Assembly (NCBI GenBank): GCA_037893245.1
Contig: JBAIAA010001513.1
Span: 62,001-126,000, forward strand
Length of the DNA stretch: 64,000 nucleotides
From: Crossaster papposus
Lineage: Eukaryota; Echinodermata; Asteroidea; Velatida; Solasteridae
Reading direction: 5' to 3'
Each line of letters starts with the position of its first letter. The stretch's first letter is position 1. Position numbers and translations under genes: made by a program. Below are positions 1,786 to 63,824 of this stretch, piece after piece. The notes beneath the pieces are model-generated. The model saw nothing but the letters and a program-made list of their open reading frames with translations. It ran no database searches and was not told the DNA's origin.

Positions 1786-1896
1786 CTCGAGGGCTTGTTC
1801 CCACATCAGGTGTTTATTTCTACTGCACACTTCTTTCACTTTACATAATAATAAATGTGAGTTTGTTTTGTTATCAGATCAAATTGAGTTTTTTAA
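1786..1896 (+). repeat. 111-bp insert, copy 1
   Basis: The insert begins CTCGAGGGCTTGTTCCCACA directly after a monomer's TTTAA and ends in GAGTTTTTTAA, so TTAA lies at both edges. It contains AATAAA at insert bases 65-70. Compared with the majority sequence it has C to A at base 53, a change shared only with the copy at 6434. The next insert is 36 monomers plus one CTA triplet downstream. Confidence 0.95.
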
Positions 1897-3447
1897 GATT
1901 TGGTCTACAATCGGCATATCCCTACTACTACATATTTAAGATTTGGTCTATAATCGGCATATCCCTACAACTACATATTTAAGATTTGGTCTACAATCGG
2001 CATATCCCTACTACTACATATTTAAGATTTGGTCTACAATCGGCATATCCCTACTACTACATATTTAAGATTTGGTCTACAATCGGCATATCCCTACTAC
2101 TACATATTTAAGATTTGGTCTACAATCGGCATATCCCTACTACTACATATTTAAGATTTGGTCTACAATCGGCATATCCCTACTACTACATATTTAAGAT
2201 TTGGTCTACAATCGGCATATCCCTACTACTACATATTTAAGATTTGGTCTACAATCGGCATATCCCTACTACCACATATTTAAGATTTGGTCTACAATCG
2301 GCATATCCCTACTACTACATATTTAAGATTTGGTCTACAATCGGCATATCCCTACTACTACATATTTAAGATTTGGTCTACAATCGGCATATCCCTACTA
2401 CTACATATTTAAGATTTGGTCTACAATCGGCATATCCCTACTACTACTACATATTTAAGATTTGGTCTACAATCGGCATATCCCTACTACTACATATTTA
2501 AGATTTGGTCTACAATCGGCATATCCCTACTACTACATATTTAAGATTTGGTCTACAATCGGCATATCCCTACCTCTACATATTTAAGATTTGGTCTACA
2601 ATCGGCATATCCCTACTACTACATATTTAAGATTTGGTCTACAATCGGCATATTCCTACTACTACATATTTAAGATTTGGTCTACAATCGGCATATCCCT
2701 ACTACTACATATTTAAGATTTGGTCTACAATCGGCATATCCCTACTACTACATATTTAAGATTTGGTCTACAATCGGCATATCCCTACTACTACATATTT
2801 AAGATTTGGTCTACAATCGGCATATCTCTACTACTACATATTTAAGATTTGGTCTACAATCGGCATATCCCTACTACTACATATTTAAGATTTGGTCTAC
2901 AATCGGCATATCCCTACTACTACATATTTAAGATTTGGTCTGCAATCGGCATATCCCTACTACTACATATTTAAGATTTGGTCTATAATCGGCATATCCC
3001 TACTACTACATATTTAAGATTTGGTCTACAATCGGCATATCCCTACTACTACATATTTAAGATTTGGTCTACAATCGGCATATCCCTACTACTACATATT
3101 TAAGATTTGGTCTACAATCGGCATATCCCTACTACTACATATTTAAGATTTGGTCTACAATCGGCATATCCCTACTACTACATATTTAAGATTTGGTCTA
3201 CAATCGGCATATCCCTACTACTACATATTTAAGATTTGGTCTACAATCGGCATATCCCTACTACTACATATTTAAGATTTGGTCTACAATCGGCATATCC
3301 CTACTACTACATATTTAAGATTTGGTCTACAATCGGCATATCCCTACTACTACATATTTAAGATTTGGTCTACAATCGGCATATCCCTACTACTACATAT
3401 TTAAGATTTGGTCTACAATCGGCATATCCCTACTACTACATATTTAA

Positions 3448-3558
3448 CTCGAGGGCTTGTTCCCACATCAGGTGTTTATTTCTACTGCACACTTCTTTCC
3501 CTTTACATAATAATAAATGTGAGTTTGTTTTGTTATCAGATCAAATTGATTTTTTTAA
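3448..3558 (+). repeat. 111-bp insert, copy 2
   Basis: G to T at base 103 gives a seven-T tract (TTGATTTTTTT). The copies at 13808, 20005 and 23056 share this mark. Nine monomers plus one CTA separate it from the next copy. Confidence 0.95.
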
Positions 3559-3948
3559 GATTTGGTCTACAATCGGCATATCCCTACTACTACATATTTA
3601 AGATTTGGTCTATAATCGGCATATCCCTACTACTACATATTTAAGATTTGGTCTACAATCGGCATATCCCTACTACTACATATTTAAGATTTGGTCTACA
3701 ATCGGCATATCCCTACTACTACATATTTAAGATTTGGTCTACAATCGGCATATCCCTACTACTACATATTTAAGATTTGGTCTACAATCGGCATATCCCT
3801 ACTACTACTACATATTTAAGATTTGGTCTACAATCGGCATATCCCTACTACTACATATTTAAGATTTGGTCTACAATCGGCATATCCCTACTACTACATA
3901 TTTAAGATTTGGTCTACAATCGGCATATCCCTACTACTACATATTTAA

Positions 3949-4059
3949 CTCGAGGGCTTGTTCCCACATCAGGTGTTTATTTCTACTGCACACTTCTTTC
4001 CCTTTACATAATAATAAATGTGAGTTTGTTTTGTTATCAGATCAAATTGAGTTTTTTAA
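3949..4059 (+). repeat. 111-bp insert, copy 3
   Basis: This copy matches the majority sequence. Four monomers follow before the partial copy at 4232. Confidence 0.95.
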
Positions 4060-4231
4060 GATTTGGTCTACAATCGGCATATCCCTACTACTACATATTT
4101 AAGATTTGGTCTACAATCGGCATATCACTACTACTACATATTTAAGATTTGGTCTACAATCGGCATATCCCTACTACTACATATTTAAGATTTGGTCTAC
4201 AATCGGCATATCCCTACTACTACATATTTAA

Positions 4232-4298
4232 CTCGAGGGCTTGTTCCCACATCAGGTGTTTATTTCTACTGCACACTTCTTTCCCTTTACATATTTAA
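4232..4298 (+). repeat. Partial 111-bp insert, copy 4 (truncated)
   Basis: This copy starts normally at CTCGAG and keeps about the first 60 bases, to CTTTACAT. It then passes into the monomer end ATTTAA and a complete insert begins at 4299. The 67-bp unit looks like a duplication in which the insert's TTTACATA was joined to the monomer's CTACATAT across shared TACATA. The AATAAA half is missing. Confidence 0.93.
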
Positions 4299-4409
4299 CT
4301 CGAGGGCTTGTTCCCACATCAGGTGTTTATTTCTACTGCACACTTCTTTCCCTGTACATAATAATAAATGTGAGTTTGTTTTGTTATCAGATCAAATTGA
4401 GTTTTTTAA
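4299..4409 (+). repeat. 111-bp insert, copy 5
   Basis: This is a full copy directly after the truncated one. T to G at base 56 (CCCTGTACAT) is shared with the copies at 15535 and 16463. Forty-seven monomers plus one CTA follow. Confidence 0.95.
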
Positions 4410-6433
4410 GATTTGGTCTACAATCGGCATATCCCTACTACTACATATTTAAGATTTGGTCTACAATCGGCATATCCCTACTACTACATATTTAAGATTT
4501 GGTCTACAATCGGCATATCCCTACTACTACATATTTAAGATTTGGTCTACAATCGGCATATCCCTACTACTACATATTTAAGATTTGGTCTACAATCGGC
4601 ATATCCCTACTACTACATATTTAAGATTTGGTCTACAATCGGCATATCCCTACTACTACATATTTAAGATTTGGTCTACAATCGGCATATCCCTACTACT
4701 ACATATTTAAGATTTGGTCTACAATCGGCATATCCCTACTACTACATATTTAAGATTTGGTCTACAATCGGAATATCCCTACTGCTACATATTTAAGATT
4801 TGGTCTACAATCGGCATATCCCTACTACTACATATTTAAGATTTGGTCTACAATCGGCATATCTCTACTACTACATATTTAAGATTTGGTCTACAATCGG
4901 CATATCCCTACTACTACATATTTAAGATTTGGTCTACAATCGGCATATCCCTATTACTACATATTTAAAATTTGGTCTACAATCGGCATATCCCTACTAC
5001 TACATATTTAAGATTTGGTCTACAATCGGCATATCCCTACTACTACATATTTAAGATTTGGTCTACAATCGGCATATCCCTACTACTACATATTTAAGAT
5101 TTGGTCTACAATCGGCATATCCCTACTACTACTACATATTTAAGATTTGGTCTACAATCGGCATATCCCTACTACTACATATTTAAGATTTGGTCTACAA
5201 TCGGCATATCCCTACTACTACATATTTAAGATTTGGTCTATAATCGGCATATCCCTACTACTACATATTTAAGATTTGGTCTACAATCGGCATATCCCTA
5301 CTACTACATATTTAAGATTTGGTCTACAATCGGCATATCCCTACTACTACATATTTAAGATTTGGTCTACAATCGGCATATCCCTACTACTACATATTTA
5401 AGATTTGGTCTACAATCGGCATATCCCTACTACTACATATTTAAGATTTGGTCTACAATCGGCATATCCCTACTACTACATATTTAAGATTTGGTCTACA
5501 ATCGGCATATCCCTACTACTACATATTTAAGATTTGGTCTACAATCGGCATATCCCTACTACTACATATTTAAGAGTTGGTCTACAATCGGCATATCCCT
5601 ACTACTACATATTTAAGATTTGGTCTACAATCGGCATATCCCTACTACTACATATTTAAGATTTGGTCTACAATCGGAATATCCCTACTACTACATATTT
5701 AAGATTTGGTCTACAATCGGCATATCCCTACTAGTACATATTTAAGATTTGGTCTACAATCGGCATATCTCTACTACTACATATTTAAGATTTGGTCTAC
5801 AATCGGCATATCCCTACTACTACATATTTAAGATTTGGTCTACAATCGGCATATCCCTACTACTACATATTTAAGATTTGGTCTACAATCGGCATATCCC
5901 TACTACTACATATTTAAGATTTGGTCTACAATCGGCATATCCCTACTACTACATATTTAAGATTTGGTCTACAATCGGCATATCCCTACTACTACATATT
6001 TAAGATTTGGTCTACAATCGGCATATCCCTACTACTACATATTTAAGATTTGGTCTACAATCGGCATATCCCTACTACTACATATTTAAGATTTGGTCTA
6101 CAATCGGCATATCCCTACTACTACATATTTAAGATTTGGTCTATAATCGGCATATCCCTACTACTACATATTTAAGATTTGGTCTACAATCGGCATATCC
6201 CTACTACTACATATTTAAGATTTGGTCTACAATCGGCATATCCCTACTACTACATATTTAAGATTTGGTCTACAATCGGCATATCCCTACTACTACATAT
6301 TTAAGATTTGGTCTACAATCGGCATATCCCTACTACTACATATTTAAGATTTGGTCTACAATCGGCATATCCCTACTACTACATATTTAAGATTTGGTCT
6401 ACAATCGGCATATCCCTACTACTACATATTTAA

Positions 6434-6544
6434 CTCGAGGGCTTGTTCCCACATCAGGTGTTTATTTCTACTGCACACTTCTTTCACTTTACATAATAAT
6501 AAATGTGAGTTTGTTTTGTTATCAGATCAAATTGAGTTTTTTAA
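6434..6544 (+). repeat. 111-bp insert, copy 6
   Basis: C to A at base 53, as in the copy at 1786, exactly 4,648 bp away. The two copies belong to a recent block duplication. Confidence 0.95.
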
Positions 6545-7880
6545 GATTTGGTCTACAATCGGCATATCCCTACTACTACATATTTAAGATTTGGTCTATA
6601 ATCGGCATATCCCTACAACTACATATTTAAGATTTGGTCTACAATCGGCATATCCCTACTACTACATATTTAAGATTTGGTCTACAATCGGCATATCCCT
6701 ACTACTACATATTTAAGATTTGGTCTACAATCGGCATATCCCTACTACTACATATTTAAGATTTGGTCTACAATCGGCATATCCCTACTACTACATATTT
6801 AAGATTTGGTCTACAATCGGCATATCCCTACTACTACATATTTAAGATTTGGTCTACAATCGGCATATCCCTACTACTACATATTTAAGATTTGGTCTAC
6901 AATCGGCATATCCCTACTACCACATATTTAAGATTTGGTCTACAATCGGCATATCCCTACTACTACATATTTAAGATTTGGTCTACAATCGGCATATCCC
7001 TACTACTACATATTTAAGATTTGGTCTACAATCGGCATATCCCTACTACTACATATTTAAGATTTGGTCTACAATCGGCATATCCCTACTACTACTACAT
7101 ATTTAAGATTTGGTCTACAATCGGCATATCCCTACTACTACATATTTAAGATTTGGTCTACAATCGGCATATCCCTACTACTACATATTTAAGATTTGGT
7201 CTACAATCGGCATATCCCTACCTCTACATATTTAAGATTTGGTCTACAATCGGCATATCCCTACTACTACATATTTAAGATTTGGTCTACAATCGGCATA
7301 TTCCTACTACTACATATTTAAGATTTGGTCTACAATCGGCATATCCCTACTACTACATATTTAAGATTTGGTCTACAATCGGCATATCCCTACTACTACA
7401 TATTTAAGATTTGGTCTACAATCGGCATATCCCTACTACTACATATTTAAGATTTGGTCTACAATCGGCATATCTCTACTACTACATATTTAAGATTTGG
7501 TCTACAATCGGCATATCCCTACTACTACATATTTAAGATTTGGTCTACAATCGGCATATCCCTACTACTACATATTTAAGATTTGGTCTGCAATCGGCAT
7601 ATCCCTACTACTACATATTTAAGATTTGGTCTATAATCGGCATATCCCTACTACTACATATTTAAGATTTGGTCTACAATCGGCATATCCCTACTACTAC
7701 ATATTTAAGATTTGGTCTACAATCGGCATATCCCTACTACTACATATTTAAGATTTGGTCTACAATCGTCATATCCCTACTACTACATATTTAAGATTTG
7801 GTCTACAATCGGCATATCCCTACTACTACATATTTAAGATTTGGTCTACAATCGGCATATCCCTACTACTACATATTTAA

Positions 7881-7991
7881 CTCGAGGGCTTGTTCCCACA
7901 TCAGGTGTTTATTTCTACTGCACACTTCTTTCCCTTTACATAATAATAAATGTGAGTTTGTTTTGTTATCAGATCAAATTGAGTCTTTTAA
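7881..7991 (+). repeat. 111-bp insert, copy 7
   Basis: A private T to C at base 105 breaks the terminal T tract (GAGTCTTTTAA). Seventeen monomers follow. Confidence 0.95.
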
Positions 7992-8722
7992 GATTTGGTC
8001 TACAATCGGCATATCCCTACTACTACATATTTAAGATTTGGTCTACAATCGGCATATCCCTACTACTACATATTTAAGATTTGGTCTACAATTGGCATAT
8101 CCCTACTACTACATATTTAAGATTTGGTCTACAATCGGCATATCCCTACTACTACATATTTAAGATTTGGTCTACAATCGGCATATCCCTACTACTACAT
8201 ATTTAAGATTTGGTCTACAATCGGCATATCCCTACTACTACATATTTAAGATTTGGTCTACAATCGGCATATCCCTACTACTACATATTTAAGATTTGGT
8301 CTACAATCGGCATATCCCTACTACTACATATTTAAGATTTGGTCTACAATCGGCATATCCCTACTACTACATATTTAAGATTTGGTCTACAATCGGCATA
8401 TCCCTACTACTACATATTTAAGATTTGGTCTACAATCGGCATATCCCTACTACTACATATTTAAGATTTGGTCTACAATCGGCATATCCCTACTACTACA
8501 TATTTAAGATTTGGTCTACAATCGGCATATCCCTACTACTACATATTTAAGATTTGGTCTACAATCGGCATATCCCTACTACTACATATTTAAGATTTGG
8601 TCTACAATCGGCATATCCCTACTACTACATATTTAAGATTTGGTCTACAATCGGCATATCCCTACTACTACATATTTAAGATTTGGTCTACAATCGGCAT
8701 ATCCCTACTACTACATATTTAA

Positions 8723-8833
8723 CTCGAGGGCTTGTTCCCACATCAGGTGTTTATTTCTACTGCACACTTCTTTCCCTTTACATAATAATAAATGTGAGTT
8801 TGTTTTGTTATCAGATCAAATTGAGTTTTTTAA
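8723..8833 (+). repeat. 111-bp insert, copy 8
   Basis: Majority sequence. The interval to the next copy is 16 monomers plus the 447 bases added by the 443-bp transposon and its duplicated ATTT. Confidence 0.95.
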
Positions 8834-9257
8834 GATTTGGTCTACAATCGGCATATCCCTACTACTACATATTTAAGATTTGGTCTACAATCGGCATATC
8901 CCTACTACTACATATTTAAGATTTGGTCTACAATCGGCATATCCCTACTACTACATATTTAAGATTTGGTCTACAATCGGCATATCCCTACTACTACATA
9001 TTTAAGATTTGGTCTACAATCGGCATATCCCTACTACTACATATTTAAGATTTGGTCTACAATCGGCATATCCCTACTACTACATATTTAAGATTTGGTC
9101 TACAATCGGCATATCCCTACTACTACATATTTAAGATTTGGTCTACAATCGGCATAACCCTACTACTACATATTTAAGATTTGGTCTACAATCGGCATAT
9201 CTCTACTACTACATATTTAAGATTTGGTCTACAATCGGCATATCCCTACTACTACAT

Positions 9258-9261
9258 ATTT
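9258..9261. other. Left target-site duplication ATTT of the 443-bp transposon
   Basis: ATTT ends the interrupted monomer and recurs at 9705-9708. Removing the element and one ATTT restores an intact monomer, so the duplication is four bases. A 2-bp TT duplication with a one-base-longer terminal repeat (TGTGACC) cannot be excluded. Confidence 0.8.
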
Positions 9262-9289
9262 GTGACCGGCTCTGCAATAAAGGGTATTA
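9262..9289 (+). repeat. Left terminal inverted repeat of the 443-bp element
   Basis: The 28-bp end begins GTGACCGGCTCTGCAATAA. It pairs with 9677-9704 with five mismatches, at repeat bases 7, 8, 12, 13 and 20. Confidence 0.88.
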
Positions 9290-9676
9290 ATTCGCGCTGT
9301 GCATTATCATGTAATGGCCTACACAAAGTTGAGAGGGTAAACATTTCATCAAAATGCGATTTACATTTTTTGTCATGAATGACATCTTTAATACCCACAG
9401 TTTCAGGTTTCATTCACAGAAATGTTGATTTTGAAGAATAAAGTAGAACAAAAATACAATTTTATGTGCATCGTTCTGTTGTACTACAATAGAGCCGGCT
9501 TTTTCAAAGCCTGTTTTTTTAGTTGTGTAATTTGAACTCCAAGGAAGTAATCAGTATGTAAACATGTCATATATCCAAAACGGGAGGGGCTATGGAGCTC
9601 TGTTATATACCACATAAAAGCTTATGCTGTGGGCTTTCCAACCATGTATATAACTCAATTTCACTGTTTTGTGGCA

Positions 9677-9704
9677 TAATACCCATTATTGTGGAGTGGG
9701 TCAC
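9677..9704 (-). repeat. Right terminal inverted repeat of the 443-bp element
   Basis: Read on the minus strand it begins GTGACCCACTCCACAATAA and pairs with 9262-9289 at 23 of 28 bases. Confidence 0.88.
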
Positions 9705-9708
9705 ATTT
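9705..9708. other. Right target-site duplication ATTT of the 443-bp transposon
   Basis: Second copy of the ATTT target. It is followed by AAGATTTGG, which resumes the broken monomer in register. Confidence 0.8.
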
Positions 9709-9968
9709 AAGATTTGGTCTACAATCGGCATATCCCTACTACTACATATTTAAGATTTGGTCTACAATCGGCATATCCCTACTACTACATATTTAAGATT
9801 TGGTCTACAATCGGCATATCCCTACTACTACATATTTAAGATTTGGTCTACAATCGGCATATCCCTACTACTACATATTTAAGATTTGGTCTACAATCGG
9901 CATATCCCTACAACTACATATTTAAGATTTGGTCTACAATCGGCATATCCCTACTACTACATATTTAA

Positions 9969-10079
9969 CTCGAGGGCTTGTTCCCACATCAGGTGTTTAT
10001 TTCTACTGCACACTTCTTTCCCTTTACATAATAATAAATGTGAGTTTGTTTTGTTATCAGATCAAATTGAGTTTTTTAA
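9969..10079 (+). repeat. 111-bp insert, copy 9
   Basis: Majority sequence, the first copy downstream of the 443-bp element. Eleven monomers to the next copy (584-bp step, also seen at 46025, 48232, 52700 and 54925). Confidence 0.95.
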
Positions 10080-10552
10080 GATTTGGTCTACAATCGGCAT
10101 ATCCCTACTACTACATATTTAAGATTTGGTCTACAATCGGCATATCCCTACTACTACATATTTAAGATTTGGTCTACAATCGGCATATCCCTACTACTAC
10201 ATATTTAAGATTTGGTCTACAATCGGCATATCCCTACTACTACATATTTAAGATTTGGTCTACAATCGGCATATCCCTACTACTACATATTTAAGATTTG
10301 GTCTACAATCGGCATATCCCTACTACTACATATTTAAGATTTGGTCTACAATCGGCATATCCCTACTACTACATATTTAAGATTTGGTCTACAATCGGCA
10401 TATCCCTACTACTACATATTTAAGATTTGGTCTACAATCGGCATATCCCTACTACTACATATTTAAGATTTGGTCTACAATCGGCATATCCCTACTACTA
10501 CATATTTAAGATTTGGTCTACAATCGGCATATCCCTACTACTACATATTTAA

Positions 10553-10663
10553 CTCGAGGGCTTGTTCCCACATCAGGTGTTTATTTCTACTGCACACTTC
10601 TTTCCCTTTACATAATAATAAATGTGAGTTTGTTTTGTTATCAGATCAAATTGAGTTTTTTAA
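10553..10663 (+). repeat. 111-bp insert, copy 10
   Basis: Majority sequence. The following 27-monomer stretch is 5 bp short because the monomer near 11071 lost five bases after CGGCAT. Confidence 0.95.
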
Positions 10664-11819
10664 GATTTGGTCTACAATCGGCATATCCCTACTACTACAT
10701 ATTTAAGATTTGGTCTACAATCGGCATATCCCTACTACTACATATTTAAGATTTGGTCTACAATCGGCATATCCCTACTACTACATATTTAAGATTTGGT
10801 CTACAATCGGCATATCCCTACTACTACATATTTAAGATTTGGTCTACAATCGGCATATCCCTACTACTACATATTTAAGATTTGGTCTACAATCGGCATA
10901 TCCCTACTACTACATATTTAAGATTTAGTCTACAATCGGCATATCCCTACTACTACATATTTAAGATTTGGTCTACAATCGGCATATCCCTACTACTACA
11001 TATTTAAGATTTGGTCTACAATCGGCATATCTCTACTACTACATATTTAAGATTTGGTCTACAATCGGCATTACTACTACATATTTAAGATTTGGTCTAC
11101 AATCGGCATATCCCTACTACTACATATTTAAGATTTGGTCTACAATCGGCATATCCCTACTACTACATATTTAAGATTTGGTCTACAATCGGCATATCCC
11201 TACTACTACATATTTAAGATTTGGTCTACAATCGGCATATCCCTACTACTACATATTTAAGATTTGGTCTACAATCGGCATATCCCTACTACTACATATT
11301 TAAGATTTGGTCTACAATCGGCATATCCCTACTACTACATATTTAAGATTTGGTCTACAATCGGCATATCCCTACTACTACATATTTAAGATTTGGTCTA
11401 CAATCGGCATATCCCTACTACTACATATTTAAGATTTGGTCTACAATCGGCATATCCCTACTACTACATATTTAAGATTTGGTCTACAATCGGCATATCC
11501 CTACTACTACATATTTAAGATTTGGTCTATAATCGGCATATCCCTACTACTACATATTTAAGATTTGGTCTACAATCGGCATATCCCTACTACTACATAT
11601 TTAAGATTTGGTCTACAATCGGCATATCCCTACTACTACATATTTAAGATTTGGTCTACAATCGGCATATCCCTACTACTACATATTTAAGATTTGGTCT
11701 TCAATCGGCATATCCCTACTACTACATATTTAAGATTTGGTCTACAATCGGCATATCCCTACTACTACATATTTAAGATTTGGTCTACAATCGGCATATC
11801 CCTACTACTACATATTTAA

Positions 11820-11930
11820 CTCGAGGGCTTGTTCCCACATCAGGTGTTTATTTCTACTGCACACTTCTTTCCCTTTACATAATAATAAATGTGAGTTTGT
11901 TTTGTTATCAGATCAAATTGAGTTTTTTAT
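11820..11930 (+). repeat. 111-bp insert, copy 11
   Basis: The last base is A to T, so the right TTAA reads TTAT before GATTTGG. This is one of the copies in which an edge TTAA is not intact. Twenty-one monomers plus one CTA follow. Confidence 0.94.
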
Positions 11931-12836
11931 GATTTGGTCTACAATCGGCATATCCCTACTACTACATATTTAAGATTTGGTCTACAATCGGCATATCCCT
12001 ACTACTACATATTCAAGAGTTGGTCTACAATCGGCATATCCCTACTACTACATATTTAAGATTTGGTCTACAATCGGCATATCCCTACTACTACATATTT
12101 AAGATTTGGTCTACAATCGGCATATCCCTACTACTACATATTTAAGAATTGGTCTACAATCGGCATATCCCTACTACTACATATTTAAGATTTGGTCTAC
12201 AATCGGCATATCTCTACTACTACATATTTAAGATTTGGTCTACAATCGGCATATCCCTACTACTACTACATATTTAAGATTTGGTCTACAATCGGCATAT
12301 CCCTACTACTACATATTTAAGATTTGGTCTACAATCGGCATATCCCTACTACTACATATTTAAGATTTGGTCTACAATCGGCATATCCCTACTACTACAT
12401 ATTTAAGATTTGGTCTACAATCGGCATATCCCTACTACTACATATTTAAGATTTGGTCTACAATCGGCATATCCCTACAACTACATATTTAAGATTTGGT
12501 CTACAATCGGCATATCCCTACTACTACATATTTAAGATTTGGTCTATAATCGGCATATCCCTACTACTACATATTTAAGATTTGGTCTACAATCGGCATA
12601 TCCCTACTACTACATATTTAAGATTTGGTCTACAATCGGCATATCCCTACTACTACATATTTAAGATTTGGTCTACAATCGGCATATCCCTACTACTACA
12701 TATTTAAGATTTGGTCTATAATCGGCATATCCCTACTACTACATATTTAAGATTTGGTCTACAATCGGCATATCCCTACTACTACATATTTAAGATTTGG
12801 TCTACAATCGGCATATCCCTACTACTACATATTTAA

Positions 12837-12947
12837 CTCGAGGGCTTGTTCCCACATCATGTGTTTATTTCTACTGCACACTTCTTTCCCTTTACATAAT
12901 AATAAATGTGAGTTTGTTTTGTTATCAGATCAAATTGAGTTTTTTAA
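12837..12947 (+). repeat. 111-bp insert, copy 12
   Basis: G to T at base 24 (CATCATGTG) is shared only with the copy at 14607. In both cases the second monomer start after the insert reads AAGAGTTGG. Confidence 0.95.
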
Positions 12948-13807: not shown

Positions 13808-13918
13808 CTCGAGGGCTTGTTCCCACATCAGGTGTTTATTTCTACTGCACACTTCTTTCCCTTTACATAATAATAAATGTGAGTTTGTTTTGTTATCAGA
13901 TCAAATTGATTTTTTTAA
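13808..13918 (+). repeat. 111-bp insert, copy 13
   Basis: G103T subtype. It is preceded by a CCTACAACTACAT monomer, as are the other G103T copies at 20005 and 23056. Sixteen monomers follow. Confidence 0.95.
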
Positions 13919-51814: not shown

Positions 51815-51925
51815 CTCGAGGGCTTGTTCCCACATCAGGTGTTTATTTCTACTGCACACTTCTTTCCCTTTACATAATAATAAATGTGAGTTTGTTTTGT
51901 TATCAGATCAAATTGAGTTTTTTAA
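51815..51925 (+). repeat. 111-bp insert, copy 50
   Basis: Majority sequence. A monomer about 220 bp upstream reads TTTCAGATTT. Eighteen monomers follow. Confidence 0.95.
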
Positions 51926-52699
51926 GATTTGGTCTACAATCGGCATATCCCTACTACTACATATTTAAGATTTGGTCTACAATCGGCATATCCCTACTAC
52001 TACATATTTAAGATTTGGTCTACAATCGGCATATCCCTACTACTACATATTTAAGATTTGGTCTACCATCGGCATATCCCTACTACTACATATTTAAGAT
52101 TTGGTCTACAATCGGCATATCCCTACTACTACATATTTAAGATTTGGTCTACAATCGGCATATCCAAACTACTACATATTTAAGATTTGGTCTACAATCG
52201 GCATATCCCTACTACTACATATTTAAGATTTGGTCTACAATCGGCATATCCCTACTACTACATATTTAAGATTTGGTCTACAATCGGCATATCCCTACTA
52301 CTACATATTTAAGATTTGGTCTACAATCGGCATATCCCTACTACTACATATTTAAGATTTGGTATATAATCGGCATATCCCTACTACTACATATTTAAGA
52401 TTTGGTCTACAATCGGCATATCCCTACTACTACATATTTAAGATTTGGTCTACAATCGGCATATCCCTACTACTACATATTTAAGATTTGGTCTACAATC
52501 GGCATATCCCTACTACTACATATTTAAGATTTGGTCTACCATCGGCATATCCCTACTACTACATATTTAAGATTTGGTCTACAATCGGCATATCCCTACT
52601 ACTACATATTTAAGATTTGGTCTACAATCGGCATATCCCTACTACTACATATTTAAGATTTGGTCTACAATCGGCATATCCCTACTACTACATATTTAA

Positions 52700-52810
52700 C
52701 TCGAGGGCTTGTTCCCACATCAGGTGTTTATTTCTACTGCACACTTCTTTCCCTTTACATAATAATAAATGTGAGTTTGTTTTGTTATCAGATCAAATTG
52801 AGTTTTTTAA
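52700..52810 (+). repeat. 111-bp insert, copy 51
   Basis: Majority sequence with TATATAATC and ACCATCGG upstream. Eleven monomers follow. Confidence 0.95.
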
Positions 52811-53283
52811 GATTTGGTCTACAATCGGCATATCCCTACTACTACATATTTAAGATTTGGTCTACAATCGGCATATCCCTACTACTACATATTTAAGATT
52901 TGGTCTACAATCGGCATATCCCTACTACTACATATTTAAGATTTGGTCTACAATCGGCATATCCCTACTACTACATATTTAAGATTTGGTCTACAATCGG
53001 CATATCCCTACTACTACATATTTAAGATTTGGTCTATAATCGGCATATCCCTACTACTACATATTTAAGATTTGGTCTACAATCGGCATATCCCTACTAC
53101 TACATATTTAAGATTTGGTCTACAATCGGCATATCCCTACTACTACATATTTAAGATTTGGTCTACCATCGGCATATCCCTACTACTACATATTTAAGAT
53201 TTGGTCTACAATCGGCATATCCCTACTACTACATATTTAAGATTTGGTCTACAATCGGCATATCCCTACTACTACATATTTAA

Positions 53284-53394
53284 GATGAGGGCTTGTTCCC
53301 ACATCAGGTGTTTATTTCTACTGCACACTTCTTTCCCTTTACATAATAATAAATGTGAGTTTGTTTTGTTATCAGATCAAATTGAGTTTTTTAA
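53284..53394 (+). repeat. 111-bp insert, copy 52, with an altered left junction
   Basis: The first three bases read GAT instead of CTC (TTTAAGATGAGGGCTTG). That equals the start of a normal monomer (TTTAAGAT) joined to the insert from its fourth base, with no net length change. Local conversion by monomer sequence explains it better than three separate substitutions. Eighteen monomers follow. Confidence 0.93.
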
Positions 53395-54168
53395 GATTTG
53401 GTCTACAATCGGCATATCCCTACTACTACATATTTAAGATTTGGTCTACAATCGGCATATCCCTACTACTACATATTTAAGATTTGGTCTACAATCGGCA
53501 TATCCCTACTACTACATATTTAAGATTTGGTCTACCATCGGCATATCCCTACTACTACATATTTAAGATTTGGTCTACAATCGGCATATCCCTACTACTA
53601 CATATTTAAGATTTGGTCTACAATCGGCATATCCCTACTACTACATATTTAAGATTTGGTCTACAATCGGCATATCCCTACTACTACATATTTAAGATTT
53701 GGTCTACAATCGGCATATCCCTACTACTACATATTTAAGATTTGGTCTACAATCGGCATATCCCTACTACTACATATTTAAGATTTGGTCTACAATCGGC
53801 ATATCCCTACTACTACATATTTAAGATTTGGTATATAATCGGCATATCCCTACTACTACATATTTAAGATTTGGTCTACAATCGGCATATCCCTACTACT
53901 ACATATTTAAGATTTGGTCTACAATCGGCATATCCCTACTACTACATATTTAAGATTTGGTCTACAATCGGCATATCCCTACTACTACATATTTAAGATT
54001 TGGTCTACCATCGGCATATCCCTACTACTACATATTTAAGATTTGGTCTACAATCGGCATATCCCTACTACTACATATTTAAGATTTGGTCTACAATCGG
54101 CATATCCCTACTACTACATATTTAAGATTTGGTCTACAATCGGCATATCCCTACTACTACATATTTAA

Positions 54169-54279
54169 CTCGAGGGCTTGTTCCCACATCAGGTGTTTAT
54201 TTCTACTGCACACTTCTTTCCCTTTACATAATAATAAATGTGAGTTTGTTTTGTTATCAGATCAAATTGAGTTTTTGAA
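54169..54279 (+). repeat. 111-bp insert, copy 53
   Basis: T to G at base 109 changes the right edge to TTGAA, so the right TTAA is lost. Fifteen monomers follow. Confidence 0.94.
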
Positions 54280-54924
54280 GATTTGGTCTACAATCGGCAT
54301 ATCCCTACTACTACATATTTAAGATTTGGTCTACAATCGGCATATCCCTACTACTACATATTTAAGATTTGGTCTACAATCGGCATATCCCTACTACTAC
54401 ATATTTAAGATTTGGTCTACAATCGGCATATCCCTACTACTACATATTTAAGATTTGGTCTACAATCGGCATATCCCTACTACTACATATTTAAGATTTG
54501 GTCTACAATCGGCATATACCTACTACTACATATTTAAGATTTGGTCTACAATCGGCATATCCCTACTACTACATATTTAAGATTTGGTCTACAATCGGCA
54601 TATCCCTACTACTACATATTTAAGATTTGGTCTACAATCGGCATATCCCTACTACTACATATTTAAGATTTGGTCTACAATCGGCATATCCCTACTACTA
54701 CATATTTAAGATTTGGTCTACAATCGGCATATCCCTACTACTACATATTTAAGATTTGGTCTACAATCGGCATATCCCTACTACTACATATTTAAGATTT
54801 GGTCTACAATCGGCATATCCCTACTACTACATATTTAAGATTTGGTCTACAATCGGCATATCCCTACTACTACATATTTAAGATTTGGTCTACAATCGGC
54901 ATATCCCTACTACTACATATTCAA

Positions 54925-55035
54925 CTCGAGGGCTTGTTCCCACATCAGGTGTTTATTTCTACTGCACACTTCTTTCCCTTTACATAATAATAAATGTGAG
55001 TTTGTTTTGTTATCAGATCAAATTGAGTTTTTTAA
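54925..55035 (+). repeat. 111-bp insert, copy 54
   Basis: The monomer end before it reads CATATTCAA, so the left TTAA is TCAA here. The insert itself is the majority form. Eleven monomers follow. Confidence 0.94.
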
Positions 55036-55508
55036 GATTTGGTCTACAATCGGCATATCCCTACTACTACATATTTAAGATTTGGTCTACAATCGGCATA
55101 TCCCTACTACTACATATTTAAGATTTGGTCTACAATCGGCATATCCCTACTACTACATATTTAAGATTTGGTCTACAATCGGCATATCCCTACTACTACA
55201 TATTTAAGATTTGGTCTACATTCGGCATATCCCTACTACTACATATTTAAGATTTGGTCTACAATCGGCATATCCCTACTACTACATATTTAAGATTTGG
55301 TCTACAATCGGCATATCCCTACTACTACATATTTAAGATTTGGTCTACAATCGGCATATCCCTACTACTACATATTTAAGATTTGGTCTACAATCGGCAT
55401 ATCCCTACTACTACATATTTAAGATTTGGTCTACAATCGGCATATCCCTACTACTACATATTTAAGATTTGGTCTACAATCGGCATATCCCTACTACTAC
55501 ATATTTAA

Positions 55509-55619
55509 CTCGAGGGCTTGTTCCCACATCAGGTGTTTATTTCTACTGCACACTTCTTTCCCTTTACATAATAATAAATGTGAGTTTGTTTTGTTATCAG
55601 ATCAAATTGAGTTTTTTAA
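55509..55619 (+). repeat. 111-bp insert, copy 55
   Basis: Majority sequence, head of the first 928-bp unit. Confidence 0.95.
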
Positions 55620-56436
55620 GATTTGGTCTACAATCGGCATATCCCTACTACTACATATTTAAGATTTGGTCTACAATCGGCATATCCCTACTACTACATA
55701 TTTAAGATTTGGTCTACAATCGGCATATCCCTACTACTACATATTTAAGATTTGGTCTACAATCGGCATATCCCTACTACTACATATTTAAGATTTGGTC
55801 TACAATCGGCATATCCCTACTACTACATGTTTAAGATTTGGTCTACAATCGGCATATCCCTACTACTACATATTTAAGATTTGGTCTACAATCGGCATAT
55901 CCCTACTACTACATATTTAAGATTTGGTCTACAATCGGCATATCCCTACAACTACATATTTAAGATTTGGTCTACAATCGGCATATCCCTACTACTACAT
56001 ATTTAAGATTTGGTCTACAATCGGCATATCTCTACTACTACATATTTAAGATTTGGTCTACAATCGGCATATCCCTACTACTACATATTTAAGATTTGGT
56101 CTACAATCGGCATATCCCTACTACTACATATTTAAGATTTGGTCTACAATCGGCATATCCCTACTACTACATATTTAAGATTTGGTCTACAATCGGCATA
56201 TCCCTACTACTACATATTTAAGATTTGGTCTACAATCGGCATATCCCTACTACTACATATTTAAGATTTGGTCTACAATCGGCATATCCCTACTACTACA
56301 TATTTAAGATTTGGTCTACAATCGGCATATCCCTACTACTACATATTTAAGATTTGGTCTACAATCGGCATATCCCTACTACTACATATTTAAGATTTGG
56401 TCTACAATCGGCATATCCCTACTACTACATATTTAA

Positions 56437-56547
56437 CTCGAGGGCTTGTTCCCACATCAGGTGTTTATTTCTACTGCACACTTCTTTCCCTTTACATAAT
56501 AATAAATGTGAGTTTGTTTTGTTATCAGATCAAATTGAGTTTTTTAA
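56437..56547 (+). repeat. 111-bp insert, copy 56
   Basis: Majority sequence, head of the second 928-bp unit. Twenty-nine monomers follow. Confidence 0.95.
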
Positions 56548-57794
56548 GATTTGGTCTACAATCGGCATATCCCTACTACTACATATTTAAGATTTGGTCT
56601 ACAATCGGCATATCCCTACTACTACATATTTAAGATTTGGTCTACAATCGGCATATCCCTACTACTACATATTTAAGATTTGGTCTACAATCGGCATATC
56701 CCTACTACTACATATTTAAGATTTGGTCTACAATCGGCATATCCCTACTACTACATGTTTAAGATTTGGTCTACAATCGGCATATCCCTACTACTACATA
56801 TTTAAGATTTGGTCTACAATCGGCATATCCCTACTACTACATATTTAAGATTTGGTCTACAATCGGCATATCCCTACAACTACATATTTAAGATTTGGTC
56901 TACAATCGGCATATCCCTACTACTACATATTTAAGATTTGGTCTACAATCGGCATATCTCTACTACTACATATTTAAGATTTGGTCTACAATCGGCATAT
57001 CCCTACTACTACATATTTAAGATTTGGTCTACAATCGGCATATCCCTACTACTACATATTTAAGATTTGGTCTACAATCGGCATATCCCTACTACTACAT
57101 ATTTAAGATTTGGTCTACAATCGGCATATCCCTACTACTACATATTTAAGATTTGGTCTACAATCGGCATATCCCTACTACTACATATTTAAGATTTGGT
57201 CTACAATCGGCATATCCCTACTACTACATATTTAAGATTTGGTCTACAATCGGCATATCCCTACTACTACATATTTAAGATTTGGTCTACAATCGGCATA
57301 TCCCTACTACTACATATTTAAGATTTGGTCTACAATCGGCATATCCCTACTACTACATATTTAAGATTTGGTCTACAATCGGCATATCCCTACTACTACA
57401 TATTTAAGATTTGGTCTACAATCGGCATATCCCTACTACTACATATTTAAGATTTGGTATACAAACGGCATATCCCTACTACTACATATTTAAGATTTGG
57501 TCTACAATCGGCATATCCCTACTACTACATATTTAAGATTTGGTCTACAATCGCCATATCCCTACTACTACATATTTAAGATTTGGTCTACAATCGGCAT
57601 ATACCTACTACTACATATTTAAAATTTGGTCTACAATCGGCATATCCCTACTACTACATATTTAAGATTTGGTCTACAATCGGCATATCCCTACTACTAC
57701 ATATTTAAGATTTGGTCTACAATCGGCATATCCCTACTACTACATATTTAAGATTTGGTCTACAATCGGCATATCCCTACTACTACATATTTAA

Positions 57795-57905
57795 CTCGAG
57801 GGCTTGTTCCCACATCAGGTGTTTATTTCTACTGCACACTTCTTTCCCTTTACATAATAATAAATGTGAGTTTGTTTTGTTATCAGATCAAATTGAGTTT
57901 TTTAA
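57795..57905 (+). repeat. 111-bp insert, copy 57
   Basis: Majority sequence, 83 bp before the piggyBac-like element. The upstream monomers are unusually variable (TATACAAACGG, CAATCGCCAT, CATATACCTAC between 57469 and 57603). Confidence 0.95.
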
Positions 57906-57984
57906 GATTTGGTCTACAATCGGCATATCCCTACTACTACATATTTAAGATTTGGTCTACAATCGGCATATCCCTACTACTACA

Positions 57985-57988
57985 TTAA
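57985..57988. other. Left TTAA target duplication of the piggyBac-like element
   Basis: TTAA directly precedes CCCTCAGCC. The flank reads CTACATTAA instead of the normal CTACATATTTAA, so three bases are missing next to the insertion. Confidence 0.92.
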
Positions 57989-58001
57989 CCCTCAGCCACA
58001 C
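57989..58001 (+). repeat. Left terminal inverted repeat, piggyBac-like element
   Basis: CCCTCAGCCACAC. It differs from the complement of the right end (CCCTCGGCTGCAC) at bases 6, 9 and 10. Confidence 0.9.
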
Positions 58002-58003
58002 GA

Positions 58004-58023
58004 CGTGAGTCCAAAGGGTGGAC
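58004..58023 (+). repeat. Left internal inverted repeat, piggyBac-like element
   Basis: Contains CCAAAGGG and GGAC, two bases inside the terminal repeat. It is the short-spacer end, probably part of the transposase recognition sequence by analogy with piggyBac. Confidence 0.87.
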
Positions 58024-58566
58024 AAAAACTATGTGTTTGTTTATATATTTTATTTTTTTCAGTCAATGGAGCTGTCCTTTTTTTTCATCTATCCCTAGAT
58101 CCTGCTGAATGGACTGGGACAAAAATTCTAACCCAGGAGGTCATTCAGGGGTGAAACATCCCTTCAAAATAATGGTTTTGGCCAAAAGCCATAGAGTTGT
58201 GCAGACAAATCGAAATCTGATCCCTTTGTGTATAGCCGCTGTCAAAAAAAGTCTCTGACATCTCTTTGAGCGGCTTTGGTAGAGAACAAACACAGCTGTT
58301 ATCAATCGTGACCCAGATATCCCCTGGGGGGTAGTTAGAGCTGTTGGTCGTTGTTATTTGTATCCTATGGCTGTTTCATGTCTGTATTGCGCAATACTGA
58401 TTTCAATGTTTACATGCTTGCAATGGATGTCCTTAAAAAAATACATAAAATAGCCAGAATGTTTAAATCTTTGATATGTGTGTCCAGGGTCCTTATATCC
58501 ATCTGTTGAGACCGTGAGAAAAAGATTTGTACCCCCAAACACAGTTCATTACCCCCAACATAAAAC
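58024..58566. other. Interior of the piggyBac-like element, no gene seen
   Basis: About 540 bp of mixed sequence with no tandem repeats. The only frame of note is 62 codons on the minus strand (58354-58542). It has no recognisable domain and no coding support beyond length. Confidence 0.8.
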
Positions 58567-58586
58567 GTCCCCCCTTTGGAGGCACG
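58567..58586 (-). repeat. Right internal inverted repeat, piggyBac-like element
   Basis: Its complement contains CGTG, CCAAAGGG and GGAC and matches 58004-58023 at 17 of 20 bases. It is 29 bp from the right terminal repeat, and that spacer includes a run of eight A. Confidence 0.87.
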
Positions 58587-58615
58587 AGGCGGGAGATGCG
58601 AAAAAAAATGAGCTA

Positions 58616-58628
58616 GTGCAGCCGAGGG
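58616..58628 (-). repeat. Right terminal inverted repeat, piggyBac-like element
   Basis: Minus-strand reading CCCTCGGCTGCAC, immediately followed on the plus strand by TTAA. Confidence 0.9.
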
Positions 58629-58632
58629 TTAA
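58629..58632. other. Right TTAA target duplication of the piggyBac-like element
   Basis: TTAA joins directly to GATTTGG, which restores the monomer. Confidence 0.92.
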
Positions 58633-58639
58633 GATTTGG

Positions 58640-59757
58640 TCTACAATCGGCATATCCCTACTACTACATATTTAAGATTTGGTCTACAATCGGCATATCC
58701 CTACTACTACATATTTAAGATTTGGTCTACAATCGGCATATCCCTACTACTACATATTTAAGATTTGGTATACAATCGGCATATCCCTACTACTACATAT
58801 TTAAGATTTGGTCTACAATCGGCATATCCCTACTACTACATATTTAAGATTTGGTCTACAATCGGCATATCCCTACTACTACATATATAAGATTTGGTCT
58901 ACAATCGGCATATCCCTACTACTACATATTTAAGATTTGGTCTACAATCGGCATATCCCTACTACTACATATTTAAGATTTGGTCTTCAATCGGCATATC
59001 CCTACTACTACATATTTAAGATTTGGTCTACAATCGGCATATCCCTACTACTACATATTTAAGATTTGGTCTACAATCGGCATATCCCTACTACTACATA
59101 TTTAAGATTTGGTCTACAATCGGCATATCCCTACTACTACATATTTAAGATTTGGTATATAATCGGCATATCCCTACTACTACATATTTAAGATTTGGTC
59201 TACAATCGGCATATCCCTACTACTACATATTTAAGATTTGGTCTACAATCGGCATATCCCTACTACTACATATTTAAGATTTGGTCTACAATCGGCATAT
59301 CCCTACTACTACATATTTAAGATTTGGTATACAATCGGCATATCCCTACTACTACATATTTAAGATTTGGTCTACAATCGGCATATCCCTACTACTACAT
59401 ATTTAAGATTTGGTCTACAATCGGCATATCCCTACTACTACATATATAAGATTTGGTCTACAATCGGCATATCCCTACTACTACATATTTAAGATTTGGT
59501 CTACAATCGGCATATCCCTACTACTACATATTTAAGATTTGGTCTTCAATCGGCATATCCCTACTACTACATATTTAAGATTTGGTCTACAATCGGCATA
59601 TCCCTACTACTACATATTTAAGATTTGGTCTACAATCGGCATATCCCTACTACTACATATTTAAGATTTGGTCTACAATCGGCATATCCCTACTACTACA
59701 TATTTAAGATTTGGTATATAATCGGCATATCCCTACTACTACATATTTAAGATTTGG
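58640..59757 (+). repeat. 559-bp (13-monomer) higher-order repeat, two units
   Basis: Four variants repeat at exactly 559 bp: GGTATACAATC (about 58768 and 59327), CATATATAAG (58882 and 59441), GGTCTTCAATC (about 58984 and 59543) and GGTATATAATC (about 59157 and 59716). No 111-bp insert is present. The repeat starts within a few monomers of the piggyBac-like element. No copy of that element separates the two units, so the duplication either did not include it or came first. Confidence 0.9.
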
Positions 59758-61599
59758 TCTACAATCGGCATATCCCTACTACTACATATTTAAGATTTGG
59801 TCTACAATCGGCATATCCCTACTACTACATATTTAAGATTTGGTCTACAATCGGCATATCCCTACTACTACATATTTAAGATTTGGTCTACAATCGGCAT
59901 ATCCCTACTACTACATATTTAAGATTTGGTCTACAATCGGCATATCCCTACTACTACATATTTAAGATTTGGTCTACAATCGGCATATCCCTACTACTAC
60001 ATATTTAAGATTTGGTCTACAATCGGCATATCCCTACTACTACATATTTAAGATTTGGTCTACAATCGGCATATCCCTACTACTACATATTTAAGATTTG
60101 GTCTACAATCGGCATATCCCTACTACTACATGTTTAAGATTTGGTCTACAATCGGCATATCCCTACTACTACATATTTAAGATTTGGTCTACAATCGGCA
60201 TATCCCTACTACTACATGTTTAAGATTTGGTCTACAATCGGCATATCCCTACTACTACATATTTAAGATTTGGTCTACAATCGGCATATCCCTACTACTA
60301 CACATTTAAGATTTGGTATACAATCGGCATATCCCTACTACTACACATTTAAGATTTGGTCTACAATCGGCATATCCCTACTACTACATATTTAAGATTT
60401 GGTCTACAATCGGCATATCCCTACTACTACATATTTAAGATTTGGTCTACAATCGGCATATCCCTACTACTACATATTTAAGATTTGGTCTACAATCGGC
60501 ATATCCCTACTACTACATATTTAAGATTTGGTCTACAATCGGCATATCCCTACTACTACATATTTAAGATTTGGTCTACAATCGGCATATCCCTACAACT
60601 ACATATTTAAGATTTGGTCTACAATCGGCATATCCCTACTACTACATATTTAAGATTTGGTCTACAATCGGCATATCCCTACTACTACATATTTAAGATT
60701 TAGTCTACAATCGGCATATCCCTACTACTACATATTTAAGATTTGGTCTACAATCGGCATATCCCTACTACTACATATTTAAGATTTGGTCTACAATCGG
60801 CATATCCCTACTACTACATATTTAAGATTTGGACTACAATCGGCATATCCCTACTACTACATATTTAAGATTTGGTCTACAATCGGCATATCTCTAATAC
60901 TACATATTTAAGATTTGGTCTACAATCGGCATATCCCTACTACTACATATTTAAGATTTGGTCTACAATCGGCATATCCCTACTACTACATATTTAAGAT
61001 TTGGTCTACAATCGGCATATCCCTACTACTACATATTTAAGATTTGGTCTACAATCGGCATATCCCTACTACTACATATTTAAGATTTGGTCTACAATCG
61101 GCATATCCCTACTACTACATATTTAAGATTTGGTCTACAATCGGCCTATCCCTACTACTACATATTTAAGATTTGGTCTACAATCGGCATATCCCTACTA
61201 CTACATATTTAAGATTTGGTCTACAATCGGCATATCCCTACTACTACATATTTAAGATTTGGTCTACAATCGGCATATCCCTACTACTACATATTTAAGA
61301 TTTGGTCTACAATCGGCATATCCCTACTACTACATATTTAAGATTTGGTCTACAATCGGCATATCCCTACTACTACATATTTAAGATTTGGTCTACAATC
61401 GGCATATCCCTACTACTACATATTTAAGATTTGGTCTATAATCGGCATATCCCTACTACTACATATTTAAGACTTGGTCTACAATCGGCATATCCCTACT
61501 ACTACATATTTAAGATTTGGTCTACAATCGGCATATCCCTACTACTACATATTTAAGATTTGGTCTACAATCGGCATATCCCTACTACTACATATTTAA

Positions 61600-61710
61600 C
61601 TCGAGGGCTTGTTCCCACATCAGGTGTTTATTTCTACTGCACACTTCTTTCCCTTTACATAATAATAAATGTGAGTTTGTTTTGTTATCAGATCAAATTG
61701 AGTTTTTTAA
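61600..61710 (+). repeat. 111-bp insert, copy 58
   Basis: Majority sequence. The upstream monomer starts AAGACTTGG. Only five monomers (326-bp step) separate it from the next copy, the shortest spacing apart from the copies around 4.0-4.3 kb. Confidence 0.95.
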
Positions 61711-61925
61711 GATTTGGTCTACAATCGGCATATCCCTACTACTACATATTTAAGATTTGGTCTACAATCGGCATATCCCTACTACTACATATTTAAGATT
61801 TGGTCTACAATCGGCATATCCCTACTACTACATATTTAAGATTTGGTCTACAATCGGCATATCCCTACTACTACATATTTAAGATTTGGTCTACAATCGG
61901 CATATCCCTACTACTACATATTTAA

Positions 61926-62036
61926 CTCGAGGGCTTGTTCCCACATCAGGTGTTTATTTCTACTGCACACTTCTTTCCCTTTACATAATAATAAACGTGA
62001 GTTTGTTTTGTTATCAGATCAAATTGAGTTTTTTAA
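61926..62036 (+). repeat. 111-bp insert, copy 59
   Basis: Private T to C at base 71, just after AATAAA (AATAAACGTG). Thirty-nine monomers follow. Confidence 0.95.
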
Positions 62037-63339
62037 GATTTGGTCTACAATCGGCATATCCCTACTACTACATATTTAAGATTTGGTCTACAATCGGCAT
62101 ATCCCTACTACTACATATTTAAGATTTGGTCTACAATCGGCATATCCCTACTACTACATATTTAAGATTTGGTCTACAATCGGCATATCCCTACTACTAC
62201 ATATTTAAGATTTGGTCTACAATCGGCATATCCCTACTACTACATATTTAAGATTTGGTCTACAATCGGCATATCCCTACTACTACATATTTAAGATTTG
62301 GTCTACAATCGGCATATCCCTACTACTACATATTTAAGATTTGGTCTACAATCGGCATATCCCTACTACTACATATTTAAGATTTGGTCTACAATCGGCA
62401 TATCCCTACTACTACATATTTAAGATTTGGTCTACAATCGGCATATCCCTACTACTACATATTTAAGATTTGGTCTACAATCGGCATATCCCTACTACTA
62501 CATATTTAAGATTTGGTCTACAATCGGCATATCCCTACTACTACATATTTAAGATTTGGTCTACAATCGGCATATCCCTACTACTACATATTTAAGATTT
62601 GGTCTACAATCGGCATATCCCTACAACTACATATTTAAGATTTGGTCTACAATCGGCATATCCCTACTACTACATATTTAAGATTTGGTCTACAATCGGC
62701 ATATCCCTACTACTACATATTTAAGATTTGGTCTACAATCGGCATATCCCTACTACTACATATTTAAGATTTGGTCTACAATCGGCATATCCCTACTACT
62801 ACATATTTAAGATTTGGTCTACAATCGGCATATCCCTACTACTACATATTTAAGATTTGGACTACAATCGGCATATCCCTACTACTACATATTTAAGATT
62901 TGGTCTACAATCGGCATATCTCTAATACTACATATTTAAGATTTGGTCTACAATCGGCATATCCCTACTACTACATATTTAAGATTTGGTCTACAATCGG
63001 CATATCCCTACTACTACATATTTAAGATTTGGTCTACAATCGGCATATCCCTACTACTACATATTTAAGATTTGGTCTACAATCGGCATATCCCTACTAC
63101 TACATATTTAAGATTTGGTCTACAATCGGCATATCCCTACTACTACATATTTAAGATTTGGTCTACAATCGGCCTATCCCTACTACTACATATTTAAGAT
63201 TTGGTCTACAATCGGCATATCCCTACTACTACATATTTAAGATTTGGTCTACAATCGGCATATCCCTACTACTACATATTTAAGATTTGGTCTACAATCG
63301 GCATATCCCTACTACTACATATTTAAGATTTGGTCTACA

Positions 63340-63683
63340 ATCAGCATATCCCTAATACTACATATTTAAGATTTGGTCTATAATCGGCATATCCCTACTA
63401 CTACATATTTAAGATTTGGTCTACAATCGGCATATCCCTACTACTACATATTTAAGATTTGGTCTACAATCGGCATATCCCTACTACTACATATTTAAGA
63501 TTTGGTCTACAATCAGCATATCCCTAATACTACATATTTAAGATTTGGTCTATAATCGGCATATCCCTACTACTACATATTTAAGATTTGGTCTACAATC
63601 GGCATATCCCTACTACTACATATTTAAGATTTGGTCTACAATCGGCATATCCCTACTACTACATATTTAAGATTTGGTCTACA
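63340..63683 (+). repeat. 172-bp (4-monomer) higher-order repeat, two units
   Basis: CAATCAGCATATCCCTAATAC followed by TCTATAATC occurs at 63341 and again at 63513, exactly four monomers apart. Confidence 0.85.
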
Positions 63684-63713
63684 ATCGGCATATCCCTACT
63701 ACTACATATTTAA

Positions 63714-63824
63714 CTCGAGGGCTTGTTCCCACATCAGGTGTTTATTTCTACTGCACACTTCTTTCCCTTTACATAATAATAAATGTGAGTTTGTTTTGTT
63801 ATCAGATCAAATTGAGTTTTTTAA
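63714..63824 (+). repeat. 111-bp insert, copy 60
   Basis: Majority sequence, the last in the window. The second monomer after it reads CAATCTGCAT. Confidence 0.95.

Follow-up and report, generated by a model that had tools for sequence, protein, structure and literature searches.

Composite and higher-order satellites are built of short monomers in long homogeneous arrays; larger blocks are amplified together in them, and the edge of an array is more diverged. In piggyBac-like elements, the expected end motif is of the CCYT type. Tandem repeats have also been described inside transposable elements, for instance in Helitron-like elements and in a miniature inverted-repeat transposable element (MITE) of Xenopus (PMC12628747). 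In the model of Scalvenzi and Pollet, as this source presents it for the repeat in the Xenopus MITE, the copy number changes by slippage or repair on flanking AT-rich direct repeats with a length of 5 bp or more (PMC12628747). In this study, we analysed 64,000 nucleotides of Crossaster papposus (Asteroidea; GenBank assembly GCA_037893245.1, contig JBAIAA010001513.1), hereafter the window, in which copies of a 111-bp segment are embedded in an array of 43-bp monomers. We propose, with a probability of about 0.6, that the segment makes up most of an older 154-bp unit (one segment plus one monomer) rather than being an insert in a 43-bp satellite. Our confidence in this order of events is moderate because the polarity rests on one array edge.

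The locus is satellite DNA, with long head-to-tail arrays of near-identical units. It shares with higher-order satellites the short monomers, the long homogeneous arrays, the joint amplification of blocks, and a diverged edge. However, the spacing of the segments varies from 1 to 86 monomers here, local near-identical blocks occur but no single fixed higher-order period was seen, and the monomer behaves like a free sub-repeat. The likeness to the MITE model, as far as the cited source sets it out, is that TTTAA stands on both sides of the monomer in the 154-bp unit. In contrast, no MITE with inverted ends was found around the unit, and the host of the repeat is a satellite unit. No description of this satellite was found in the literature searched.

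The window is one satellite array of the 43-bp monomer GATTTGG...CATATTTAA, and it is enclosed in a longer array on the 333,353-bp contig C1511 (bases 62001-126000 of C1511), on which three other loci (L009, L010, and L011) are the same satellite. A Viterbi parse divided the window into 1312 monomers (M), 59 segments (I), one 67-bp partial unit (P), and two unrelated elements (X). In BLAST, the 111-bp query matched 60 places in the window, namely 59 full copies and one partial copy at 4232; three of the matches to full copies ended 1 to 3 bases before the segment edge. The array and the segments are as follows:

1..64000, plus strand: 43-bp satellite array (parse, 1312 monomers)
1786..63824, plus strand: 59 full copies of the 111-bp segment (BLAST and parse)
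Segment starts 1-20: 1786, 3448, 3949, 4299, 6434, 7881, 8723, 9969, 10553, 11820, 12837, 13808, 14607, 15535, 16463, 17993, 18881, 19422, 20005, 20632
Segment starts 21-40: 21262, 21932, 22473, 23056, 23597, 24485 (112 bp), 25629, 26170, 26539, 27681, 28437, 29494, 30938, 33801, 35503, 38455, 41235, 43585, 44771, 45656
Segment starts 41-59: 46025, 46609, 46978, 47863, 48232, 48816, 50174, 50586, 51815, 52700, 53284, 54169, 54925, 55509, 56437, 57795, 61600, 61926, 63714

The first-pass annotation of the window had described 59 full copies at one phase of the monomer, and both BLAST and the parse confirmed them. The copies are 111 bp long in 58 of 59 cases, and one (24485-24596) has 112 bp. 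The upstream neighbour is the last monomer base in 58 copies and the P unit in the remaining one (copy 4299), the downstream neighbour is monomer base 1 in 59/59, and the orientation is identical in 59/59. No reverse-strand monomer or segment was seen in the window (9-mer cover, stretches of 15 or more). The TTAA reported for both edges, mutations aside, is intact in 56/59 copies; the mutated edges are those of copies 54925 (left, TCAA), 11820 (right, TTAT), and 54169 (right, TGAA). Nevertheless, the repeat common to both sides of the segment is really 5 bp (TTTAA) and not 4. The 59 copies differ from their own consensus at 0.4% of bases, with 16 distinct changes in total; thus, chance is excluded. 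In addition, the copy at 53284-53394 opens with GAT, the first three monomer bases, in place of CTC, perhaps through conversion or a template switch.

The evidence on polarity comes chiefly from the edge of an array on another contig (C123). Stepwise probes placed the start of this array between 1,752,120 and 1,754,000. All 13 probes from 1,754,000 to 1,778,120 were satellite without any M-M junction, and so was the probe at 1.78 Mb. M-M junctions appear deeper in the array, with three in the probe at 1.82 Mb and four in that at 1.86 Mb. In the two edge loci L079 and L080, each of the 42 runs consists of a single monomer (one run is truncated where the locus ends), and 29 P units are mixed in. 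Tandem Repeats Finder gave periods of 153-155 bp for L080, besides 67-bp and shorter ones. The satellite at this edge is a 154-bp unit made of I and M. The parse of L079 also gave a 9-bp and a 1-bp piece of I, and the latter forms with its neighbour one apparent I-I contact; the 9-bp piece is taken as the cut-off last unit at the edge and the 1-bp piece as parse noise.

Furthermore, the edge is about 2.5 to 7 times as diverse as the core or the window. The diversity of I was 0.0485 at the edge (n = 41), 0.0066 in the window (n = 59), and 0.0166 in all core loci (n = 310), and that of M was 0.0284 at the edge (n = 41) and 0.0115 in the core (n = 5658). The consensus of M is identical in edge and core, and that of I differs at one site. 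Edge variants such as 80G>T, which 27 of the 41 edge copies carry, do not occur in the 310 core copies. None of the 41 edge copies of I equals the window consensus. The mean distances between copies of I were 0.0476 within the edge, 0.0168 within the core, and 0.0405 between the two; for M, they were 0.0287, 0.0119, and 0.0211, respectively.

For comparison, we used twenty 10-kb loci from 15 contigs and the three from C1511, all chosen from satellite matches and not at random. They proved to be the same satellite throughout, except for non-satellite pieces in L019 and L026 and parse gaps of 1-3 bases. The window and these loci (L009-L031) were parsed into 5727 M, 317 I, and 138 P, and the runs of monomers between segments ranged from 1 to 86. 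No I-I or I-P contact was seen in this set. Zero-length runs were 0 of 283, whereas about 17 would be expected if run lengths were geometric with a mean of 16. Near-same run patterns are shared by L015, L016, L024, and L025, and likewise by L028 and L029, which may be mutual copies. The counts were therefore redone without four of these look-alikes (L015, L016, L025, and L029), and the shape was unchanged (256 runs, about 16 zero-length runs expected, none seen). Genome-wide, a single monomer between two segments (I-M-I) was found at 11,243 places (71-bp pattern, up to 3 mismatches), I-M junctions numbered 38,274, and I-I junctions 0 (both 27 bp, up to 2 mismatches). Reversed-pattern controls gave 0; the ratio of 11,243 to 38,274 is approximate, as the pattern lengths differ. 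Homologous exchange within monomers leaves at least one monomer and hence no I-I contact, and this holds for either polarity.

Long stretches without any segment also exist. One (L017) has at least 119 monomers, and another (L035, C86:1-3000) has 70 monomers and 0 segments. The monomer mismatch of L035 (0.17%) is the lowest of the stretches parsed, and the stretch includes seven units of odd length, five of them of 42 bp.

Another question is how one arrangement came to be repeated 59 times. The consensus monomer holds exactly one TTAA and one TTTAA; therefore, uniform phase alone is compatible with repeated TTAA-targeted insertion. The argument of the first-pass annotation that 59 independent insertions would not be so uniform is thus not supported, since a TTAA-specific transposon would be led to the same phase by the single TTAA. 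Its conclusion that amplification of larger units spread one origin holds on other grounds. We compared how often identical rare monomer variants occur at equal distance from two copies with how often they occur at offsets shifted by 1-3 monomers. In the window (monomers 4 to 8), sharing per 1000 was 17.7 at the matching offset versus 2.6-6.5 at shifted offsets on the left, and 4.3 versus 0.4-1.6 on the right. When only pairs of different haplotypes were used (window, monomers 4 to 9), the values were 13.4 versus 2.7-6.1 on the left and 3.4 versus 0.8-2.4 on the right. For 234 non-redundant copies from all loci, again of different haplotypes, the peak was weaker (left, 4.4 versus 1.6-2.6; right, 2.0 versus 1.0-1.6). 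The comparison within the same haplotype was mixed, and several window offsets oppose linkage (e.g., -12, -8, and -5). The pairs are not independent, and hence no P value is given. A Mantel test gave 0.118 and 0.121 for insert against flanks and 0.065 for left against right, and 0 of 199 permutations reached any of these values (11 of 308 copies were excluded because their flank was cut off). However, the left-flank distances (median, 72 edits) were distorted by the 67-bp units, and this result was dropped in favour of the offset test. Larger duplicated blocks are also present in the window:

1..3232, again at 4649-7880, plus strand: near-identical block of 3232 bp (1 mismatch, 4648-bp offset)
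44508..46977, again at 46715-49184, plus strand: near-identical block of 2470 bp with several segments (2 mismatches)

Co-amplification is favoured because the copies have one orientation, share flank variants, and lie in near-identical multi-kb duplications. These data thus support a single origin from which the amplification of larger units spread the segment. In addition, C1511 and C289 were each matched twice at 100% by a 301-bp query with the same 4648-bp spacing, and the two contigs are either haplotype copies or the result of a recent duplication.

The microhomology geometry of the monomer also accounts for the partial unit:

4232..4298, plus strand: partial unit P, 67 bp, directly adjoined by a full copy (BLAST and parse)

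In this unit, segment bases 1-62 are joined to a monomer-type end. Its boundaries are at TACATA, which is common to the monomer end and the segment, 67 bp apart, and both the segment and the 67-bp unit begin with CTCGAG. Among the 138 P units of the parsed set, the next unit is I in 129, P in 8, a non-satellite piece in 1, and M in 0. The best reading of P is a tandem duplication that used a 6-bp repeat within the composite unit. Some variants are exclusive when the 129 segments after P are set against the other 188, for example 17C>T (12 versus 0), and the P-I pair may be a subfamily of its own.

From these observations, we infer the following course of events. The ancestral satellite would have had a unit of 154 bp, composed of I and one 43-bp M, with a copy of the 5-bp direct repeat TTTAA at either end of M. 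In a rare event, M may then have been duplicated by slippage or through microhomology at TTTAA. The homology between neighbouring monomers would afterwards have let unequal exchange lengthen and shorten the runs of M (1 to 86), and larger blocks with several copies of I would have been duplicated too. The 67-bp P may have arisen in the same way on TACATA.

In the segment itself, terminal inverted repeats were not found: the best end-to-end alignment scored 10.5, and 909 of 1000 shuffles scored as high. The first-pass annotation had likewise seen no clear inverted repeats, and it nevertheless suggested the remnant of a TTAA-targeting transposon, a suggestion that these shuffles do not favour. 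A direct repeat of 5 bp or more at the flanks would arise by chance with a probability of about 1%. Two comparators lie in the array outside the satellite unit:

57985..58632, no strand assigned: piggyBac-like miniature element, TTAA-CCCTCAGCC ... GCCGAGGG-TTAA
9262..9706, no strand assigned: second miniature element, 29-nt inverted ends GTGACC.../...GGTCAC, ATTT on both sides

The element at 57985-58632 has TTAA-CCCTC ends, and its 17-nt inverted ends are 82% complementary (TTAA included); those of the element at 9262-9706 are 83% complementary. The segment resembles piggyBac-like elements and MITEs in having TTAA at both edges, whereas it differs from them in lacking a CCCT-type or other terminal inverted repeat, which the element at 57985-58632 has. 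A transposon origin of the segment is unsupported beyond TTAA itself under either polarity. A DNA search with the 111 bp gave no match, probably since very common words are skipped. Exact segment heads with a left base other than A occur at 405 places, and among 100 of these 405 that were listed (without flanks), 99 share a contig with other listed places. The lone one lies on C66, which holds satellite at 43-53 kb.

The direction from the 154-bp unit to the 43-bp satellite is supported by the 1:1 repeat at the edge and its higher diversity, the junction counts, the lowest mismatch in L035, the geometry of P, and the sharing of flanks. Several observations nevertheless weigh against it. A full reading of an array edge was obtained in a single case, and this edge could have arisen by local contraction to a single monomer for each segment, after which homogenisation stopped; the identity of the consensus sequences and a within-edge diversity above the edge-core distance fit a contraction if both radiated from one sequence. 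The lack of I-I junctions also fits an insertion once exchange runs in monomers, and target duplication would also leave a 5-bp edge repeat. Segment density was not significantly correlated with monomer divergence across 29 core tiles (Spearman 0.25, P = 0.19), and a value of 0.40 (P = 0.02) was obtained only after five extra loci were added. The divergence of core monomers does not rise steadily toward short runs (0.0073, 0.0053, 0.0068, and 0.0057 for runs of 1-3, 4-9, 10-29, and 30+). Because L035 also has units of odd length, youth is not proven by its low mismatch. It is thus conceivable, although we find it rather unlikely, that the 43-bp satellite came first and that one segment entered one monomer, by TTAA transposition or by microhomology capture on TTTAA, and was spread by amplification of larger units. 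The flanks of the segment rejoin into a perfect monomer with TTTAA on both segment sides, as such an entry would have it, and the common flank variants, the near-identical multi-kb blocks, and the long segment-free stretches agree with it. However, the sole edge that was read is a 1:1 repeat of 154 bp more diverged than the core, the segment-free L035 has the lowest and not the highest mismatch, the segment has no terminal inverted repeats, and no dispersed copy was seen, in searches poorly suited to finding one. Of the single insertion and later amplification first proposed for this DNA, the amplification stands, and the insertion possibly has the wrong polarity.

Another possibility is that both modules derive from a single transposable element that carried a tandem repeat internally. 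Tandem copies of this element would have become the satellite, and the 111 bp would be the terminal parts of the element, fused to each other. In the account of the source cited above, one such route starts from a repeat that has AT-rich direct repeats of 5 bp or more on its flanks (PMC12628747), and TTTAA flanks M; however, a weak search (the 100 listed places described above) revealed no dispersed element that has these parts, and we regard this origin as improbable. Repeated independent insertion of a TTAA-targeting element gains something from the single TTAA of the monomer, and a piggyBac-like element did land on TTAA in this array. Against it are the single orientation in 59/59, the absence of inverted ends, the flank variants common to copies at the matching offset, and the 0 I-I junctions genome-wide though every segment terminates in TTAA. 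The data on junctions and flanks count strongly against this explanation, and it is hardly credible. Finally, I-I junctions are 0 versus 38,274 I-M junctions although TTTAA bounds both modules. This could mean a two-module satellite in which M is an elastic spacer and I never touches itself owing to a constraint, e.g., a bound protein requiring one 43-bp spacer or more, and not solely to the way in which homologous exchange works. We consider such a ban very doubtful; if it were true, selection on satellite spacing would be naturally recorded in the array.

Under our preferred reading, in which the 154-bp unit is the older one, the locus suggests that the direction of change behind an apparent insertion at a uniform site can be misread if the view is limited to the homogenised core of the array. 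Furthermore, candidate intermediates occur in one genome, namely the 1:1 edge unit, short runs, long runs, and a pure 43-bp stretch. Because these candidate stages coexist, how a portion of a longer satellite gives rise to a short one could be tested directly.

Several minor observations were made on the window and the other loci. In the window, 3 bp of monomer are missing from the left flank of the element at 57985-58632. At about 8743-9403 of L019, an element inserted in the array has CGTCGTGTGCC/GGCACACGACG as its inverted ends and is flanked by ATAT on either side, and in L026 a copy of the 111-bp segment or the 67-bp unit is interrupted by about 3.1 kb of non-satellite DNA (6353-9502). 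The 111-bp consensus happens to have two open forward frames. The segment was rejected as a single-strand hairpin (z = 0.34), and also as a derivative of the monomer, since 221 of 1000 shuffles reached the alignment score and the alignment is no better than shuffled. No Rfam family was found at 1700-4500 of the window up to E = 1, and the CENP-B box was found 0 times in the window on both strands. On the 1.5-Mb contig C625 (L012-L016 and L051-L057), all 12 stretches were satellite, on the plus strand in seven up to about 0.89 Mb and on the minus strand in five from about 1.07 Mb; therefore, an inversion or a misjoin lies between about 0.89 and 1.07 Mb. The assembly (1.02 Gb, 1841 contigs) also includes a mitochondrial contig with COX1, which was translated under tables 5 and 9. 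Several positions at which asparagine is conserved become Lys under table 5 and Asn under table 9, the code of echinoderms and flatworms; with three of the four upstream tRNAs on the minus strand, this agrees with a sea star. In addition, two loci (L032 and L034) on the multi-megabase contig C8 contain COX1-family genes whose frames stay open over long distances under the standard code, and this contig is probably a bacterium in the assembly.

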